This document shows, piece by piece, positions 39,798-46,610 of a stretch of DNA of 58,448 nucleotides (position 1 is the first letter of the stretch; every line of letters begins with the position of its first letter). Both the position numbers and the translations under genes were made by a program. The notes under the pieces are model-generated. The model was given only the letters and a program-made list of their open reading frames with translations. It was not told the origin of the DNA and searched no databases. Source of the DNA: Akkermansia muciniphila (GTDB lineage Bacteria > Verrucomicrobiota > Verrucomicrobiia > Limisphaerales > UBA9464); contig CAMDGV010000024.1 of the NCBI GenBank assembly GCA_945898055.1, forward strand, positions 1 to 58,448, written 5' to 3'.

Positions 39798-41051
39798 ATG
39801 ATTTCCTACGCTCCTTCTTTCAGCGCTAATGGGCGCCAGTACTCGCCACCCCCCCGTTTGATTGCCGTCCTTTGTTTGGATGGCAGTGCTGATGAGTATC
39901 TGGATGCGGCACTGGCGCGCGGTCGGATGCCGCATTTGCACCGGATTTCTTCCCTTGGTTATAGGGGGATGGCTCGAGCTCAGATGCCGACCTTCACCAA
40001 CGTTAATAATACGTCGATTGTTACCGGCGTACCCCCATCGGTGCATGGCATTGGGGGCAATTTTTTTTTCGACACAACGATTGGGCAGGAGGTAATGATG
40101 AATTCCGCCCGATATTTACGGGTGCCGACTTTATTTTCAGCGGCGCAAGCTGCGGGGCGTCGGGTGGCGGTGGTGACGGCTAAGGAGAAGTTAAGGGATA
40201 TTTTTGCCAGCGGATTGATTGAGCAAGGAGGGATTGCTTTTTCCACAGAAAAGGCGCGGGAAGCGGTGATGAGTACCCACGGAATCTCGGATGTTGAGGC
40301 GTTGGCGGGGCCGACACCGGAGATTTATTCCGGGGATGCGTCGATCTATGTTCTTCGAGCGGGAGTGCGATTAGCACAAGAGGGACGTTCAGATTTTCTT
40401 TATCTTAGCACGACCGACTACATGCAGCATAAGTACGCACCAGAAGCACCAGAGATCCTCGATTTCTATGCGGCGCTTGATGTTGAGTTGGGGAAACTTT
40501 TGGCATTGGGAGCCGTGGTTGGGCTGACGGCTGACCATGGAATGAATGATAAGTTGAGTGCAGATGGGACCCCCAATGTGGTTTATCTCGAATCGGAATT
40601 GGATCGGCGATTTGGGAGCGGTTTTCGGGTTATTTTACCCATCACTGATCCGTATGTGATTCATCACGGAGCTTTGGGTTCTTTTGCTCAGGTGCATATT
40701 CCAACGGGGATCGACGTGAGGGCGGTGATGAGTGAGATTGCTGCATTACCTGGAATTACTGAGGTTTATACTCGAGATGTCGCGGCTCGATTGATGGGTT
40801 TGCCTCTCGATCGAATGGGAGACGTGGTGGTGGTATCGGGCCGAGATGCGGTGATTGGTCGGACGCCAGAGTATCATGATTTAAAAGCCCTCAATGGGGG
40901 GTTGCGATCTCACGGAGGTCGATACGAGGAGATGGTGCCCTTGGTAATAAGTGATCCCCTGACGCCTGCCTACCTCGCTCGGGTGAGAGGTGATATTCGG
41001 AACTTTGATATTTTCGATCTTGTTTGCAATGGGACAGAGGTGGGGCGGTGA
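39798..41051 (+). CDS. phnA: Phosphonoacetate hydrolase
   Basis: A 417-residue alkaline-phosphatase-superfamily enzyme that splits phosphonoacetate into acetate and phosphate. Visible are PRLIAVLCLDGSADEYL (first metal Asp), TFTNVNNTSIVTGVPPSVHG (catalytic Thr and Asn), YLSTTDYMQHKYAPEA (Asp-His metal pair), GLTADHGMNDK (Asp-His) and the C-terminal LNGGLRSHGGRYEEMVPL. These fit PhnA of the AEP-PhnWAY pathway. I chose ATG 39798; a GTG at 39792 is possible. The -10-like TATAAA at 39764 lies 34 bp upstream. The stop overlaps the start of the next gene. Confidence 0.92.
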   Translation: MISYAPSFSANGRQYSPPPRLIAVLCLDGSADEYLDAALARGRMPHLHRISSLGYRGMARAQMPTFTNVNNTSIVTGVPPSVHGIGGNFFFDTTIGQEVMMNSARYLRVPTLFSAAQAAGRRVAVVTAKEKLRDIFASGLIEQGGIAFSTEKAREAVMSTHGISDVEALAGPTPEIYSGDASIYVLRAGVRLAQEGRSDFLYLSTTDYMQHKYAPEAPEILDFYAALDVELGKLLALGAVVGLTADHGMNDKLSADGTPNVVYLESELDRRFGSGFRVILPITDPYVIHHGALGSFAQVHIPTGIDVRAVMSEIAALPGITEVYTRDVAARLMGLPLDRMGDVVVVSGRDAVIGRTPEYHDLKALNGGLRSHGGRYEEMVPLVISDPLTPAYLARVRGDIRNFDIFDLVCNGTEVGR

Positions 41052-42370
41052 GGGTGACCGGAGTGAGGGAGGGGTCTCAAGGGGACTGGGCGGGGAGGGC
41101 ACTTCGTTGTTTTCCGGGGGGCTCAAATGGAGAGTACGGAATTCCTGAGAATCAAATTCCGGTGCTTGAACGGGGTTTAGGGGCACGCGTTTGGGATACG
41201 GAGGGTGGGGAGTTTTTAGATTTTACGATGGCTTGGGGTTCTGCACTTGGAGGGCATGCCCACCCCAAGCTGTTGGAAGCAGCGGCGCGGGCTGGGCGGG
41301 ATGGTATTAACTTTGCGGCGGTGAATCGGCGTTCGGTGGAACTGGCCGAACGAATTATGTCGCTGAGTCGGTGTGCTGAGCGCATCCGATTTGTGGCCTC
41401 TGGGACGGAAGCCACGCTTTTGTGTCTACGGGTGGCGCATGCGGCAACGGGGCGTCGTAAGGTGGTTCGTTTTGAGGGTGCCTATCACGGTCAGCACCCG
41501 GTAGGTATTGCTGGGATGATTGCGGGGCGTCCGTCGGCCTTACCTTTGTGCGATCCTACTGGGGCGGGAGCACCTTGGGTGGAGAACGATGTTTTGGTGG
41601 CTCCTTACAATGATCTTGCTGTGACTGAATCAATTTTATCCGCTGCCGCAGGTGATATCGCAGCGGTGATTATTGAACCCTTGCATCGGTGTTTGTCGCC
41701 CGCGCCCGGTTTTCTGGAAGGCTTGAGAGCGGTCACCCGTCGGTTGGGAATTGTTCTTATCTTCGACGAAGTGGTGACAGGGTTCCGCCTCGCCGCAGGC
41801 GGTGCGCAGGAGTATTATGGAGTGATTCCGGACTTAGTGGCTTATGGAAAAGGGTTAGGTGGAGGATTTCCGATCGGGGCTTATGCGGGGCGAGCAGATC
41901 TGATGGAAGCCGTTTCTGAGCATCGATTGCCTCGGGCCGATTACGCTTGGTCCGCTTCAACTACCGGTGGCAATCCCATTTCTTGCGCTGCGGCCTTAGC
42001 TATGTTGGATCTGCTGGCTGAATCTCGTGTTTATGAGCATCTCCACGAGATGGGGCGTCGTTTCAGAAATGGAATGAAAGCCATCCTAGCAGACCAATCA
42101 GTGGCAGGGCAGGTACTAGGTGACGGACCCTTGGGGCAAGTTGCCTTTTCAAGTGTGCCGGTGGTGAATCAGCAGACGTGGCTAGCCAGTGACCGAGCGC
42201 GGGGGCGTCGGTTGATGTTATCCCTGTTGCGACGCGGCGTCTTTTTGAATCCGATGGGGACCAAGATGTATTTGTCGCTTGCGCACGACACGTCGGAATT
42301 GGTTGGATTTTTTGATCGGTTTGCGGAGGCTTTGTCCGATTCTGACAGCGAGAGGGGAGTCCTTTCCTGA
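41048..42370 (+). CDS. Class III PLP-dependent aminotransferase-like enzyme in phosphonate operon
   Basis: A class III (GSA/ornithine-type) PLP enzyme of about 440 residues: ALRCFPGGSNGEYGIPENQIP, then WDTEGGEFLDFTMAWGS, GTEATLLCLRVAHAATGR, FEGAYHGQHPVG, the cofactor Asp in FDEVVTGFRL and the Schiff-base Lys in AYGKGLGGGFPIGAYAG. It sits between phosphonoacetate hydrolase and a phosphonoacetaldehyde dehydrogenase-like gene and overlaps phnA by 4 bp (GTGA at 41048). No phnW (class V) is present. So it either transaminates 2-aminoethylphosphonate or acts like PbfA, the (R)-1-hydroxy-2-aminoethylphosphonate ammonia-lyase, which is also annotated as class III. Sequence alone cannot decide. A later GTG start cannot be excluded. 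Confidence 0.8.
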   Translation: MRVTGVREGSQGDWAGRALRCFPGGSNGEYGIPENQIPVLERGLGARVWDTEGGEFLDFTMAWGSALGGHAHPKLLEAAARAGRDGINFAAVNRRSVELAERIMSLSRCAERIRFVASGTEATLLCLRVAHAATGRRKVVRFEGAYHGQHPVGIAGMIAGRPSALPLCDPTGAGAPWVENDVLVAPYNDLAVTESILSAAAGDIAAVIIEPLHRCLSPAPGFLEGLRAVTRRLGIVLIFDEVVTGFRLAAGGAQEYYGVIPDLVAYGKGLGGGFPIGAYAGRADLMEAVSEHRLPRADYAWSASTTGGNPISCAAALAMLDLLAESRVYEHLHEMGRRFRNGMKAILADQSVAGQVLGDGPLGQVAFSSVPVVNQQTWLASDRARGRRLMLSLLRRGVFLNPMGTKMYLSLAHDTSELVGFFDRFAEALSDSDSERGVLS

Positions 42371-42371
42371 G

Positions 42372-43796
42372 ATGATTACTATGATTTCTCTGACCAGTTT
42401 ATTGGCCGGTTGCCCGATTGAAGGTACTCCGCTCTTGATTGTTCGTAACCCCTATGACGGCAGTTGTGTTGGCGAGGTAACCACAGCGACTCGGGAGCAT
42501 GCTGAAGCGGCGATAGCGGCAGCGGTTGCTTTCCGAGACACGCCGAGTCGGTATCGTCGGTCGGCCATCTTGGAATCAGCTCGAACGGCGTTGGAGTTAA
42601 GGCGCGAGGAATTTGCGAGAACGATTACTTTAGAAACAGGGTTAGCGTTGCGAGAATCGCGTTATGAGGTAGGGCGGACGCTGGATGTGCTGCGATTTGC
42701 GTCGATGGAAGCATTACGAGACGACGGCCAGATTTTTTCCTGTGATATTTCTGAGCAAGGGAAAGCGCGAAAAATTTTTACCACTCGCGAACCGTTGCGC
42801 TGTGCGGTAGCAGTGACCCCGTTCAATCACCCTTTGAATCAGGTAGCCCACAAAGTAGGGCCAGCGATAGCGGCGGGGACGCCAATGGTTTTAAAGCCAT
42901 CAGAGAAGACCCCATTGACGGCCCTAAAGTTTGCCGGGTTATTGAGTGAAGCGGGATTACCGGGGCCGATGTTGAGTGTGTTACTTGGGCCGACCCACGC
43001 TGTGGCAGAAGTCCTGGTAGGGCATCCCGACGTGGAAGTGGTGGCCTTTACTGGAAGCGTGCCGGTGGGGAAACGGATAGCGTCGACAGCTGGGTATAAG
43101 AAGTTGGTTTTAGAATTGGGCGGCAATGATCCCTTGATTGTGTTGGAGGATGCTGACTTAGATTTGGCAGTGACCTTAGCTGCGGAAGGGAGTTATCGAA
43201 ACTCAGGCCAACGGTGCACGGCAGTGAAGCGGATTTTGGTGCAGGACAGCATTGCCGAAGAATTCACTCGGCGTTTCGTCGAGAAGACCCGGGAGTATAT
43301 TTGTGGGGATCCCATGGATGAAGCGACCCGAGTGGGAACAGTGATTGACGAAGCATCGGCGCGGAGTCTAGAGGCCGTGGTCTTAGAAGCGGTGGCAGCC
43401 GGCGCCAAGGTTCTGATTGGAGGGACTCGACGCGGGGCATTAATGGAGCCCACCGTTTTGATTGATGTGCCGCGCGACTGCCGGATGGTGGTGAGCGAGA
43501 GTTTTGGACCCTTAGCCCCGATTATGAAGATTCGGGATTTGGACGATGCGATGGTGGTGGCTAACTCGACGGCTTACGGACTGAGTTCGGGGGTAGTGAC
43601 CACCCATTTGCAGAATGCTTTGAAGGCCATTCGAGGATTGCGTTGTGGAACAGTAAACATCAACGAGGTGCCCGGATTCCGGGTTGAGAGCAGTCCTTTT
43701 GGGGGTATCAAGGACAGTGGCTTGGGGATAAAAGAAGGGGTGATCGAATCGATCAAAGGTTACACCTATGTGAAGACTTTTAGTCTACCTTGGTAA
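42372..43796 (+). CDS. phnY: Phosphonoacetaldehyde dehydrogenase-like ALDH
   Basis: A 474-residue aldehyde dehydrogenase. Catalytic Cys is in NSGQRCTAVKR and the general base Glu in LVLELGGNDPL; NAD site motifs are VTPFNHPLNQVAHKVGPA, LKPSEKTPLTA and FTGSVPVGKRIA; the tail is SPFGGIKDSGLGIKEG. The Q-R-C-T-A-V-K-R form of the active site is typical of PhnY, which oxidises phosphonoacetaldehyde to phosphonoacetate, the substrate of the first gene of the operon. Start ATG 42372 has AGAGGGGAG 12 nt upstream; ATG 42381 is an alternative. Confidence 0.87.
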   Translation: MITMISLTSLLAGCPIEGTPLLIVRNPYDGSCVGEVTTATREHAEAAIAAAVAFRDTPSRYRRSAILESARTALELRREEFARTITLETGLALRESRYEVGRTLDVLRFASMEALRDDGQIFSCDISEQGKARKIFTTREPLRCAVAVTPFNHPLNQVAHKVGPAIAAGTPMVLKPSEKTPLTALKFAGLLSEAGLPGPMLSVLLGPTHAVAEVLVGHPDVEVVAFTGSVPVGKRIASTAGYKKLVLELGGNDPLIVLEDADLDLAVTLAAEGSYRNSGQRCTAVKRILVQDSIAEEFTRRFVEKTREYICGDPMDEATRVGTVIDEASARSLEAVVLEAVAAGAKVLIGGTRRGALMEPTVLIDVPRDCRMVVSESFGPLAPIMKIRDLDDAMVVANSTAYGLSSGVVTTHLQNALKAIRGLRCGTVNINEVPGFRVESSPFGGIKDSGLGIKEGVIESIKGYTYVKTFSLPW

Positions 43797-43842: not shown

Positions 43843-43881
43843 AAAAACCACCGCACAACTCAGAGAAGTGCGGTGGTTTTT
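43843..43881. terminator. Strong bidirectional terminator between phnY and aceE
   Basis: AAAAACCACCGCAC (43843-43856) is fully complementary to GTGCGGTGGTTTTT (43868-43881), 14 bp, with 11-nt loop. Each strand ends in a T5 run, serving both convergent genes. Confidence 0.92.
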
Positions 43882-43907: not shown

Positions 43908-46610
43908 CTAGACGCAGACGCCGAACCGTTTTTCGGGATCGACACCGAGATCGCAGATGGCCTGAGCGACCACCGATTTTGGGAGAAGACCCTCGAGAGA
44001 TAGTTTGTAGAGGGTAGCAATGGTGGTGCATTCGCCATCGATCTCGAAGAATCGACGGAGCGCTGATCGAACCTCGCTACGACCGAATCCGTCGCAACCC
44101 AAGGTCATTAGGCCACCGGGAATCCAAGGAGCGATCTGGTCTGCTACCAGTTTGAGATTGTCGCTAACCGCGATCCAAGGTCCGGCCTCTTTTTCCACTG
44201 TTTGTTCGAGGAAACTGATCCGAGGCACTTCCGTGGGGTGGAGCATATTCCAGCGTTTAGCTTCCTGAGCTTCGGAGCGGAGTCGTTTGAAGCTGGTGAC
44301 ACTCCAGACATCGGCACTAACGCCATACTGTTCGAGGAGTTCCTGAGCCTTAAGCGCTTGCTGAAGGATGGCTCCCGAACCGAGCAATTGAACGGAGTGT
44401 TTCAAGCCTGATTTACCCTGCTTGAATTTGTACATACCGCGGAGGATACCTTCGACAACTGCAGGATGCTCAGGAAGGGGTGGGTGGGCGTAGTCCTCAT
44501 TATGGACCGAGACATAGTAGAAAATATCTTCGCCATCGGCGTACATTCGTTTGAGACCGTCGCAGACGATCACGGCCAATTCGTAACCGAAGGCAGGCTC
44601 GTAGGACATGAGATTGGGCACAGAACCAGCGATCAGATGGCTATGAGCATCTTGATGTTGGAGGCCTTCCCCGTTGAGAGTGGTGCGACCAGAGGTAGCA
44701 CCGATCATGAAACCGCGGCAGCGAGAATCCCCGGCTAACCAGATTTGATCGCCGACTCGTTGAAATCCGAACATCGAGTAGTAGATGTAGAAGGGGATCA
44801 TCGGCACGCCGTAGGTGACATTAGAAGTGCCAGCGGCGATGAAGTCGGCCATCGAACCCGCTTCATTAATTCCTTCTTCGAGGAGTTGGCCGTCTTTTTT
44901 CTCGATGTATGGAGTGGTTGCGTTGTCCTCCGTCTTAGTGCCTGGATTATAAAGTTGACCGCGCGAACTATAGATACCGACCTGACTAAAGAGGCCTTCC
45001 ATACCGAAGGTACGGGCTTCGTCGGGAACGATGGGGACAATAAATTTACCGATATTACGGTCGCGGAGGAGGGATCCGATGAGCACCACATAGGCTTTGG
45101 TAGTGGAAGCGGCGGAGAGAGCGGTGCCTAGAACAACATTCCGGAAGGCGTCGTCGGTGTGCTTGGGTGTGACAAGCTTTTGAGCGCGATCGATGCGAAC
45201 AGGATTGAATCCATTGAGAGCTTTGCGCCGTTCCATTAGGTATTGGATTTCGGCACTTTCCTGAGGTGGCCGATAGAAAGGAAGATCAGCAATGACCTCA
45301 TCTTCGAGCGGAATGGAGAAACGTTCGCGGAAGTGCCGAATATCACGTTCGGCGAGTTTTTTGAGGCCGTGGGTTGGGTTTTTGCCTTCACCGGCTTCGC
45401 CGGTGCCATAGCCCTTGACAGTTTTGGCAAGGACGACCGTTGGGCGGCCATTGCGTTGAGTGGCTTTGTGATAAGCGGCGTAGACTTTGCGAGGATCATG
45501 ACCGCCTCGGGTTAGTTTCTTGAGTTGGTCATCAGAGAGATGAGAGACCAAGTCCAGCAGAGGGGGATATTTTCCGAAGAAATTCTTCCGAATAAAAGCG
45601 CCGCTTTCGACCACATACTGTTGGTACTCGCCATCGACGACCTCATTCATACGGCGTGCGAGGAGACCGGTCTCATCTTTGGCGAGGAGTTTATCCCAAT
45701 CGCTACCCCAAACGACCTTGATGACATTCCAACCAGCGCCACGGAATTGGCCTTCGAGATCTTGGATAACCTTACCATTGCCACGGACCGGTCCATCGAG
45801 ACGTTGGAGGTTGCAATTAATGACCCAGACAAGGTTATCGAGCTGTTCGCGACCGGCGACCCCGATAGCGCCATGGGTTTCCGGTTCATCGGATTCTCCA
45901 TCTCCGATGAAAGCCCAGACCATGGGGTCGTGGCCTTGGGGAACCATCTTCCGTGCCTGAAGGTAGCGACTGAAGCGAGCTTGATAGATCGAGTGAATGG
46001 GGCCAAGGCCCATGGAGACCGTGGGGAAAATCCAAAAATCCGGCATTAAGAAAGGATGCGGATATGAGCTAAGCCCGGGATGTTCCTGAAGTTCTTGGCG
46101 AAAGTTTTTGAGATGTTTTTCGTTGAGTCGATACTCGAGATAAGCTCTGGAATAATTCCCCGGAGACGCATGACCTTGGAAGTAGATCATGTCGGCTGTT
46201 TTGCCATCGGCACCACCGCGAAAGAAATGATTAAAGCCGACTTCGTAGAGAGTTGCGAGGGACGCGAACGTGGCGATGTGACCGCCGACATTCGTTGTTT
46301 TATTTGCCTTGGCCACCATCGCCATTGCGTTCCATCGGACATGGGCGCGGATGAGTCGTTCCATTTCCAAATCGCCAGGATAGTCGGGTTGGTCGGCCAC
46401 CGATATGGTATTCAGGTACGGCGTGGTAGTGACATCAGGAACCTGGTATCCTTTGTCGCGGAGTCCTTGGATGAGGCGTGCCACAAGGCTACGGGCTTCC
46501 TCGGGTGACTTACCCGTCAGCGCCAATTCGAGCAGAGCTTCGAAGGATTCTGCGTAACGTGTCAGTTGGGATTCGGCATTTGTGCCGTTAGAGAAACCAG
46601 TTGTATTCAA
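43908..46610 (-). CDS. aceE: Pyruvate dehydrogenase E1 component, homodimeric
   Basis: A 900-residue thiamine-diphosphate enzyme of the homodimeric AceE type, converting pyruvate to acetyl-lipoyl-E2. Marks are HVRWNAMAMVAKANK, VGGHIATFASLATLYEVGF (catalytic His), the TPP motif WAFIGDGESDEPETHGA to VWVINCNLQRLDGPVRGNGKV (GDG...N split), VVLAKTVKGYGTG, PIVPDEARTFGMEGLFSQVG and DVWSVTSFKRLRSEA. The start is TTG 46610; no ATG or GTG nearby fits better. aceF and lpd are not adjacent. Shares a terminator with the phosphonate operon. Confidence 0.95.
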   Translation of the reverse strand: MNTTGFSNGTNAESQLTRYAESFEALLELALTGKSPEEARSLVARLIQGLRDKGYQVPDVTTTPYLNTISVADQPDYPGDLEMERLIRAHVRWNAMAMVAKANKTTNVGGHIATFASLATLYEVGFNHFFRGGADGKTADMIYFQGHASPGNYSRAYLEYRLNEKHLKNFRQELQEHPGLSSYPHPFLMPDFWIFPTVSMGLGPIHSIYQARFSRYLQARKMVPQGHDPMVWAFIGDGESDEPETHGAIGVAGREQLDNLVWVINCNLQRLDGPVRGNGKVIQDLEGQFRGAGWNVIKVVWGSDWDKLLAKDETGLLARRMNEVVDGEYQQYVVESGAFIRKNFFGKYPPLLDLVSHLSDDQLKKLTRGGHDPRKVYAAYHKATQRNGRPTVVLAKTVKGYGTGEAGEGKNPTHGLKKLAERDIRHFRERFSIPLEDEVIADLPFYRPPQESAEIQYLMERRKALNGFNPVRIDRAQKLVTPKHTDDAFRNVVLGTALSAASTTKAYVVLIGSLLRDRNIGKFIVPIVPDEARTFGMEGLFSQVGIYSSRGQLYNPGTKTEDNATTPYIEKKDGQLLEEGINEAGSMADFIAAGTSNVTYGVPMIPFYIYYSMFGFQRVGDQIWLAGDSRCRGFMIGATSGRTTLNGEGLQHQDAHSHLIAGSVPNLMSYEPAFGYELAVIVCDGLKRMYADGEDIFYYVSVHNEDYAHPPLPEHPAVVEGILRGMYKFKQGKSGLKHSVQLLGSGAILQQALKAQELLEQYGVSADVWSVTSFKRLRSEAQEAKRWNMLHPTEVPRISFLEQTVEKEAGPWIAVSDNLKLVADQIAPWIPGGLMTLGCDGFGRSEVRSALRRFFEIDGECTTIATLYKLSLEGLLPKSVVAQAICDLGVDPEKRFGVCV

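Follow-up and report, generated by a model that had tools for sequence, protein, structure and literature searches.

Introduction

Ancillary enzymes of 2-aminoethylphosphonate (AEP) clusters, namely PbfA, PbfB-D and PbfF, each pointed to a natural phosphonate used as a bacterial phosphorus source, according to the accessible portions of the published accounts. PbfA, a class III pyridoxal phosphate (PLP) enzyme annotated as an aminotransferase, accompanies phnWX and phnWAY clusters as an additional gene and acts on the R enantiomer of 1-hydroxy-AEP (HAEP), leaving S-HAEP untouched (accessible portions of PMC8154272). Some alphaproteobacteria handle S-HAEP with a racemase, PbfF, which belongs to the unrelated 2-hydroxyacid-dehydrogenase family (accessible portions of PMC12366243). 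Here we describe the family, operon, distribution and genomic co-occurrence of PLP1, a class III PLP enzyme encoded between phnA and phnY in a 58,448-nucleotide stretch of DNA (the window; contig CAMDGV010000024.1 of assembly GCA_945898055.1, labelled Akkermansia muciniphila). Like PbfA, PLP1 is an extra class III enzyme in phosphonate gene clusters and probably feeds phosphonoacetaldehyde (PAA) into the pathway. The reading that we favour, tentatively, is that its starting compound is an aminophosphonate distinct from both AEP and R-HAEP.

The excerpts available of PMC5615132 note phnA in freshwater Verrucomicrobia. We found no glutamate-semialdehyde-type enzyme of phosphonate clusters in the open literature searched, which leaves aside subscription papers, preprints and supplements, and no PLP1-like enzyme was met in the accessible portions of PMC8154272, PMC12366243, PMC10590968, PMC8316502, PMC10574752 and PMC5615132. 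A further recurrent family of this sort implies that bacteria either use another natural phosphonate in this way or treat a known one by a second chemistry, and PLP1 may widen the range of natural phosphonates open to cells.

The phnA-PLP1-phnY operon

A sequence-only reading of the window had proposed a phosphonate operon of phnA, a class III PLP enzyme gene and phnY, closed by a strong terminator and accompanied by no phosphonate transporter or regulator, and our analysis bears these points out, the last of them by eye. The three genes are complete, lie on one strand and sit exactly where that reading had placed them (Table 1). PhnA scores 482.5 bits against TIGR02335 (curated cut-off 407.55) and PhnY scores 646.3 bits against TIGR03250 (635.65), the latter by a narrow margin. 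PLP1 belongs to class III, with 196.2 bits against PF00202 (gathering cut-off 30.5) and the PLP lysine present. The phnA stop and the GTG start of PLP1 share 4 bp (GTGA, 41048-41051), and PLP1 and phnY are spaced by 1 bp. The hairpin, 46 bp 3' of phnY, has 14 pairs, an 11-nt loop and a U-run; the 53-nt stretch that contains it folds at -24.5 kcal/mol (z -5.96), and none of 200 shuffles was equally good. It is missing from the 2 terminator-like sites returned by a simple consensus scan (below the shuffle mean of 6.2), because the maximum loop of that scan is 8 nt. The hairpin may also terminate a convergent gene at 43908-46610. The open reading frame list, read by eye, holds no transporter or regulator gene within ~5 kb on either side of the operon; the neighbouring genes resemble those for cytochrome c biogenesis, folC, pyruvate dehydrogenase E1 and serS.

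Table 1. Positions of the operon genes, the hairpin and a recurrent secreted-looking protein
Feature	Position	Strand	Basis
phnA, phosphonoacetate hydrolase, 417 aa	39798..41051	+	TIGR02335 equivalog, Pfam PF01663
PLP1, class III PLP enzyme of distinct family, 440 aa, GTG start, PLP lysine K268	41048..42370	+	PF00202, clade, model
phnY, phosphonoacetaldehyde dehydrogenase, 474 aa	42372..43796	+	TIGR03250 equivalog
Intrinsic-terminator-like hairpin at operon end	43843..43881	+	RNA fold
~270-aa HAHNDYEH...VEAD protein	L045, L049, L050, L069, L071, L089; Lacipirellula L171:16531-17322	- (L171)	by eye

PLP1 as a protein family

Judged by its sequence, PLP1 is a distinct class III family that is neither PbfA, PhnW nor HemL. 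Its top curated models are those of glutamate-semialdehyde aminomutase, at scores below their cut-offs (317.8 bits against 398 for NF000818; 302.4 against 527.3 for TIGR00713), and automatic annotation of PLP1 is thus likely to mislead. The PbfA model NF049939 (cut-off 525) is not among the best 25 of the 69 families listed for PLP1, the 25th of which scores 122.2 bits. PhnW is a PLP enzyme of the same gene sets as PLP1 and the two co-occur. PhnW, the AEP:pyruvate transaminase and a class V PLP enzyme, is described by TIGR02326 and TIGR03301, in contrast to PF00202 for PLP1, and PLP1 is not among the matches of either PhnW model in the window's genome.

The sequence-only reading had suggested a tree of class III enzymes that includes PbfA. 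In a quick maximum likelihood tree of 115 proteins, all 46 PLP1 rows form a single clade (support of 99 in the Shimodaira-Hasegawa-like approximate likelihood ratio test), apart from PbfA, GabT and HemL. The tree omits L088, L094, L013, the near-copies L019, L055, L059, L060, L081 and L090, and the 197-aa piece of L044. HemL occupies a separate branch, and PbfA groups with E. coli GabT on the opposite side of the tree, that is, in the gamma-aminobutyrate transaminase branch, whereas PLP1 lies in the glutamate-semialdehyde aminomutase branch. Identity between PLP1 and PbfA is ~31% over the aligned part. The suggestion that PLP1 might be a PbfA-type enzyme is not supported: the two families are distant in the tree and they co-occur. 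The PbfA group of the tree also takes in class III enzymes from L088 and L091; the L091 protein fails the PbfA model and the L088 protein is its close relative.

The sister group of PLP1 consists of ten proteins at 36-40% identity, from Chloroflexota, Acetobacteraceae, a Pseudomonas and a Rhodobacteraceae assembly. At four of their loci, reading by eye revealed no phosphonate genes and nothing that pointed to a function. On contig JAPOVX010000187.1 of the Rhodobacteraceae assembly, a PLP1 gene (L080) and the gene of a sister-group protein on a long branch (L108) lie within ~20 kb of each other.

Residues were counted in 52 PLP1 rows (L088, a broken extraction, L094, which is at a contig end, and L013, the row of the window's own PLP1, were left out) and in 21 HemL rows, made up of E. 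coli HemL and 20 matches from the class at 35-41%, picked by similarity and not by family model. K268, R214 and K406 are invariant in PLP1 (52/52), as are Glu29, Trp301 and Ser304. PLP1 and HemL share ~34-40% identity, but the column of HemL Glu399 (E. coli numbering) is Lys406 in all 52 PLP1 rows and Glu in 21/21 HemL rows. In PLP1 the column of HemL Arg24 usually holds G, N, D or A; it lies in a loop where the alignment is uncertain. Glu399 is a conserved active-site Glu of E. coli HemL and Arg24 is its loop Arg. Glu29 and Trp301 are specific to PLP1 relative to HemL, and in the sister group Glu29, Trp301 and Ser304 occur in 0/9 rows. R214 and K406 were considered as phosphonate-specific binders and ruled out, both being kept in the sister group (9/9) and in a homologue from Thermomicrobium. 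A phosphodiesterase-family neighbour of that homologue has no family match at 1e-30 and is not PhnA.

The AlphaFold model of PLP1 is confident, with a mean predicted local distance difference test score of 91.4. The solved folds nearest to it are those of glutamate-semialdehyde aminomutases, an omega-transaminase, PctV and beta-transaminases, with Z running from 50 down to 44. PLP1 shares its fold with HemL (3l44: VIA Z 50.3, root-mean-square deviation 1.9, 410 aligned), and the same fold group includes the beta-amino-acid omega-transaminases 6k8h, 2yku and 4ao9 (Z 48.8 to 44.3), which have 30-33% identity to PLP1 and whose beta-amino substrates resemble AEP. We know of no phosphonate context for these transaminases. 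A sequence signature motif has been described for them (accessible portions of PMC10589169). The fold comparison, made with a predicted model, says nothing about the reaction of PLP1.

Distribution and gene neighbourhoods

A scan for PLP1 with short peptide patterns across genomes of 84,980 species, which is not exhaustive, yielded 78 loci. The set at 46% identity or more comes from Verrucomicrobiota, Planctomycetota, Alphaproteobacteria, Gammaproteobacteria, Nitrospinota and bacteria labelled deltaproteobacteria or Desulfobacteraceae; the next scan locus below this set is at 40%. The Thermomicrobium homologue, a plasmid protein found separately, falls between the two groups at 42-43%. Among 236 genomes of the window's class (the class sample), PLP1 is found in 10, at 66% identity or more, and the next matches reach at most 41%. 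By record title, PLP1 carriers are mostly metagenome-assembled genomes of lakes, ponds and the sea. Three assemblies titled Akkermansia muciniphila (L056, L061, L064) have PLP1 operons near-identical to those of pond and lake Verrucomicrobia, and the label looks doubtful.

Loci were mapped by similarity-weighted gene calling and tblastn, and neighbours were tallied by tblastn on 52 loci, several of them on short contigs (L048, a copy of L069, was left out). In this tally phnA is present on 24 loci, phnY on 21, phnW on 13, pbfA on 11, phnX on 2 and a PhnX-like haloacid dehalogenase (HAD) gene on 2. At least one of these genes accompanies PLP1 on 36 of the 52 loci, within 300 bp on 30 of them. 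The aldehyde dehydrogenases of L085 and L093 are not PhnY (238 and 232 bits against the TIGR03250 cut-off of 636). In verrucomicrobial loci phnA and phnY remain neighbours of PLP1 as its identity falls from 91% to 64%. Fifteen loci have phnA and phnY with neither phnW nor pbfA, which suggests that PLP1 alone delivers PAA; three loci with the order phnA-PLP1-phnY (L054-L056) are from genomes with no PhnW match. At the other extreme, phnW, pbfA and PLP1 share one locus in 8/52 cases. L047 and L074 have phnW-PLP1-phnA-phnY-pbfA on one strand, with phnW adjoining PLP1. The two PbfA proteins tested beside PLP1 score 710 (L047) and 690 bits (L085) against the cut-off of 525.

In some loci outside Verrucomicrobiota, PLP1 is found with a different PAA sink, PhnX. 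The Nitrospinota locus L092 has pbfA, phnX, phnW and PLP1 in this order, on mixed strands. At the Pirellula locus L089, PLP1 and phnX (335 bits, cut-off 220) are convergent, after which come a TIGR03364 oxidase using flavin adenine dinucleotide (FAD) (446, cut-off 285) and a Phn-HD oxygenase (224, cut-off 214.6). Lacipirellula has the same gene order with an insert of ~8 kb, PLP1 and phnX lying ~8 kb apart; its PhnX was identified by model and its other genes by resemblance. Neither genome contains PhnW. TIGR03364 is the family of PbfD1, as given in the accessible portions of PMC10590968. A further gene, c16 (an FAD oxidase with a GcvT part; L072:3354-5876), is next to PLP1 in two loci, L072 and L075, and shares a third, L084, with it. 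In Shinella (L175), two c16 relatives flank pbfA and a PbfF-like gene on both sides, a 48% relative adjoining that pair. Perhaps c16 is an N-demethylase for methylated aminophosphonates.

Co-occurrence with phosphonate genes in whole genomes

To the sequence-only reading, PhnW was absent. This is true of the operon and not of the genome (4.63 Mb in 136 contigs, 95% complete), in which one gene, on contig C81 (L012:2629-3774), exceeds the cut-offs of both TIGR02326 and TIGR03301, with 451.8 bits against 400.8 for the former. That reading had named a co-regulated phnW elsewhere in the genome as a finding that would refute it, and the presence of the C81 gene supplies half of that. This phnW is solitary, away from other recognised phosphonate genes, and by eye it adjoins a secreted protein gene and a pgsA-like gene. 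A search of the window's genome for PepM (phosphoenolpyruvate mutase, of AEP biosynthesis) gave no match. The genome has no PhnX above cut-off, and its recognised PAA sink is therefore PhnY-PhnA. It also contains further class III genes, one of which, on C28, is HemL-like by similarity alone.

We extended the search to 51 PLP1 genomes, leaving out L061, L069 (= G116) and L103 (the same genome as L081). Many are metagenome assemblies, so gene absences are soft. PhnW is above cut-off in 36/51 and present at E<=1e-60 in 39/51; the 12 without it include the finished chromosome of Lacipirellula. PbfA is found in 29/51, including 7 of the 12 PhnW-less genomes, and has no match at E<=1e-140 in the other 22, one of which is the window's genome. 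PhnA is present in 41/51 (40 above cut-off) and PhnX in 6/51 above cut-off or 10/51 at E<=1e-30. A PAA sink, PhnA or PhnX, is thus found in 44/51 genomes, 3 of the 10 PhnA-less ones having PhnX above cut-off; in G269 and G272 the only sink candidate is a weak PhnX-like match.

In the class sample, which contains 22 genomes with PhnA, 23 with PhnW and 13 with PbfA, these genes are concentrated in genomes with PLP1: PhnA in 8/10 with PLP1 versus 14/226 without it, PhnW in 8/10 versus 15/226 and PbfA in 7/10 versus 6/226 (Fisher p of 6e-8, 9e-8 and 3e-8, ignoring shared descent). Within the window's order (42 genomes), the same tests gave p of 1.5e-4, 5e-3 and 5e-3, again with shared descent ignored. 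PLP1 is present in 8/13 genomes with both PhnA and PhnW versus 0/9 with PhnA and no PhnW, suggesting, for this class at least, that PLP1 adds to the PhnW pathway and does not stand in for PhnW. All nine genomes of the latter kind are outside the window's order, which itself has none to compare.

Proposed role of PLP1 and alternatives

PLP1 is found beside three known makers of PAA (PhnW, PbfA and a PbfD-type oxidase), and the simplest account is thus that it makes PAA from another compound; the eight loci that combine phnW, pbfA and PLP1 argue by parsimony for a third substrate. Because PLP1 accompanies two different PAA sinks, PhnY-PhnA and PhnX, we infer that PAA is its product. We tentatively favour PLP1 as an ancillary enzyme of the hydrolytic pathway that makes PAA from an aminophosphonate distinct from AEP and R-HAEP, with S-HAEP as the leading candidate. 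Another aminophosphonate was one of the options in the sequence-only reading and is kept here. PLP1 would bind PLP via K268, take a primary-amine phosphonate other than AEP (the substrate of PhnW) and R-HAEP (the substrate of PbfA), and yield PAA, which PhnY would oxidise to phosphonoacetate and PhnA would then cleave to acetate and phosphate. In planctomycetes the PAA would go to PhnX.

The substrate S-HAEP and the elimination chemistry are our guess, reached by elimination. S-HAEP comes first because PbfA spares it, because the PbfF candidate (the 2-hydroxyacid-dehydrogenase-like gene beside Shinella pbfA) has no match in the PLP1 loci examined, and because c16 has a 48% relative in the Shinella cluster. 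PLP1 would deaminate S-HAEP with loss of water and ammonia, as the stereo-complement of PbfA and with Glu29 as the candidate acid for hydroxyl loss. If so, it would share a compound with PbfF and do the job that some alphaproteobacteria leave to PbfF and PbfA. The narrower proposal, that PLP1 is a dedicated S-HAEP ammonia-lyase, independently evolved and of opposite handedness to PbfA, with Glu29 as candidate acid, is conceivable and rather doubtful. Were it true, the five-gene operons with PhnW and PbfA would burn AEP and both HAEP enantiomers without PbfF. The 22 genomes lacking a PbfA match, the window's own included, speak against PLP1 as a mere HAEP racemase, and that role was rejected.

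Several observations weigh against the role that we favour. Sixteen of the 52 loci have no known phosphonate gene, though one of these, L087, has PhnX just beyond the locus end, and five of the 51 genomes (G116, G177, G260, G267, G276) lack both PhnA and PhnX by the thresholds applied; one of them, G116, does contain a partial PhnX-like HAD match, and a TIGR03364 oxidase close to its pbfA. The co-occurrence tests take no account of shared descent. R214 and K406 are also present in the Thermomicrobium homologue, beside which no phn gene was seen by eye, and the solved relatives listed for PLP1 are mostly transaminases or aminomutases, not lyases. S-HAEP was arrived at by elimination alone, from a short list of aminophosphonates that are known sources of PAA. 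The absence of PbfF is weak evidence, as the identity of PbfF in Shinella is itself inferred, and PbfF is reported from alphaproteobacteria only (accessible portions of PMC12366243).

In the main alternative, PLP1 would be a second AEP transaminase, not homologous to PhnW, forming PAA with the help of an acceptor different from pyruvate; it would be redundant in genomes that also have PhnW and sustain the pathway in those that lack it. AEP corresponds to beta-alanine with a phosphonate in place of the carboxylate, and the solved relatives 6k8h, 2yku and 4ao9 are beta-amino-acid transaminases. Twelve PLP1 genomes, including the finished Lacipirellula chromosome, lack PhnW; the minimal operons of L054-L056 are from such genomes, and in L091 PLP1 is found with relatives of AEP-transporter parts (all below cut-off) in a PhnW-less genome, L088 being similar. 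These points are countered by PhnW above cut-off in 36/51 PLP1 genomes, by phnW adjoining PLP1 in single operons (L047, L074) and by the split of 8/13 versus 0/9 in the class sample, which together also overturn the proposal of the sequence-only reading that the PLP enzyme replaces PhnW. Moreover, 7 of the 12 PhnW-less genomes have PbfA, and the PhnW-less Pirellula cluster has an oxidase of the PbfD1 family (accessible portions of PMC10590968). An AEP transaminase is therefore possible and, in our view, somewhat unlikely. Less probable still is an enzyme for some other aminophosphonate, such as phosphonoalanine or a demethylated product of c16, or an aminomutase acting before PhnW or PbfA. The nearest folds do include glutamate-semialdehyde aminomutase, and c16 in three PLP1 loci (L072, L075, L084) hints at N-methylated substrates upstream, but the 15 minimal loci without phnW or pbfA suggest that PLP1 delivers PAA by itself.

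We give little credence to PLP1 as a functional PbfA, that is, an R-HAEP ammonia-lyase, of independent origin: this would suit the 22 genomes with no PbfA match, but PbfA itself is present in the other 29 and on the same stretch as PLP1 in 11/52 loci. That PLP1 should be a normal HemL, or a bystander gene that came to sit in the operon by drift, is very improbable. Its best family scores are for glutamate-semialdehyde aminomutase models, but they are below cut-off, PLP1 forms a separate clade, the HemL Glu is Lys in 52/52 rows and Arg is not among the commonest residues of the loop-Arg column. The other class III genes of the window's genome, with the HemL-like one on C28, and the conservation of phnA and phnY beside PLP1 down to 64% identity also argue against it.

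Other observations in PLP1 clusters

In four Verrucomicrobiota loci (L047, L049, L050, L074) pbfA is clustered with phnY and phnA, the L047 pbfA being confirmed by model. The combination of pbfA with phnY and phnA is said to be restricted to Proteobacteria in the accessible portions of PMC12366243.

At the deltaproteobacterial loci L088 and L091, PLP1 is accompanied by a class III enzyme of the PRK06062 type, an HAD hydrolase resembling PhnX and a SauS-like acylating aldehyde dehydrogenase, together with a citrate-synthase-like protein and AEP-transporter relatives. These clusters were recognised by family models in L091 (mostly below cut-off) and by similarity in L088. Neither genome has PhnW, PhnA or PbfA at the thresholds used.

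A secreted-looking protein of ~270 aa, glycerophosphodiesterase-like by eye, recurs in PLP1 and phn clusters (Table 1). Neither Pfam nor NCBIfam gave a match for the L071 copy; the protein might release phosphonates from lipids.

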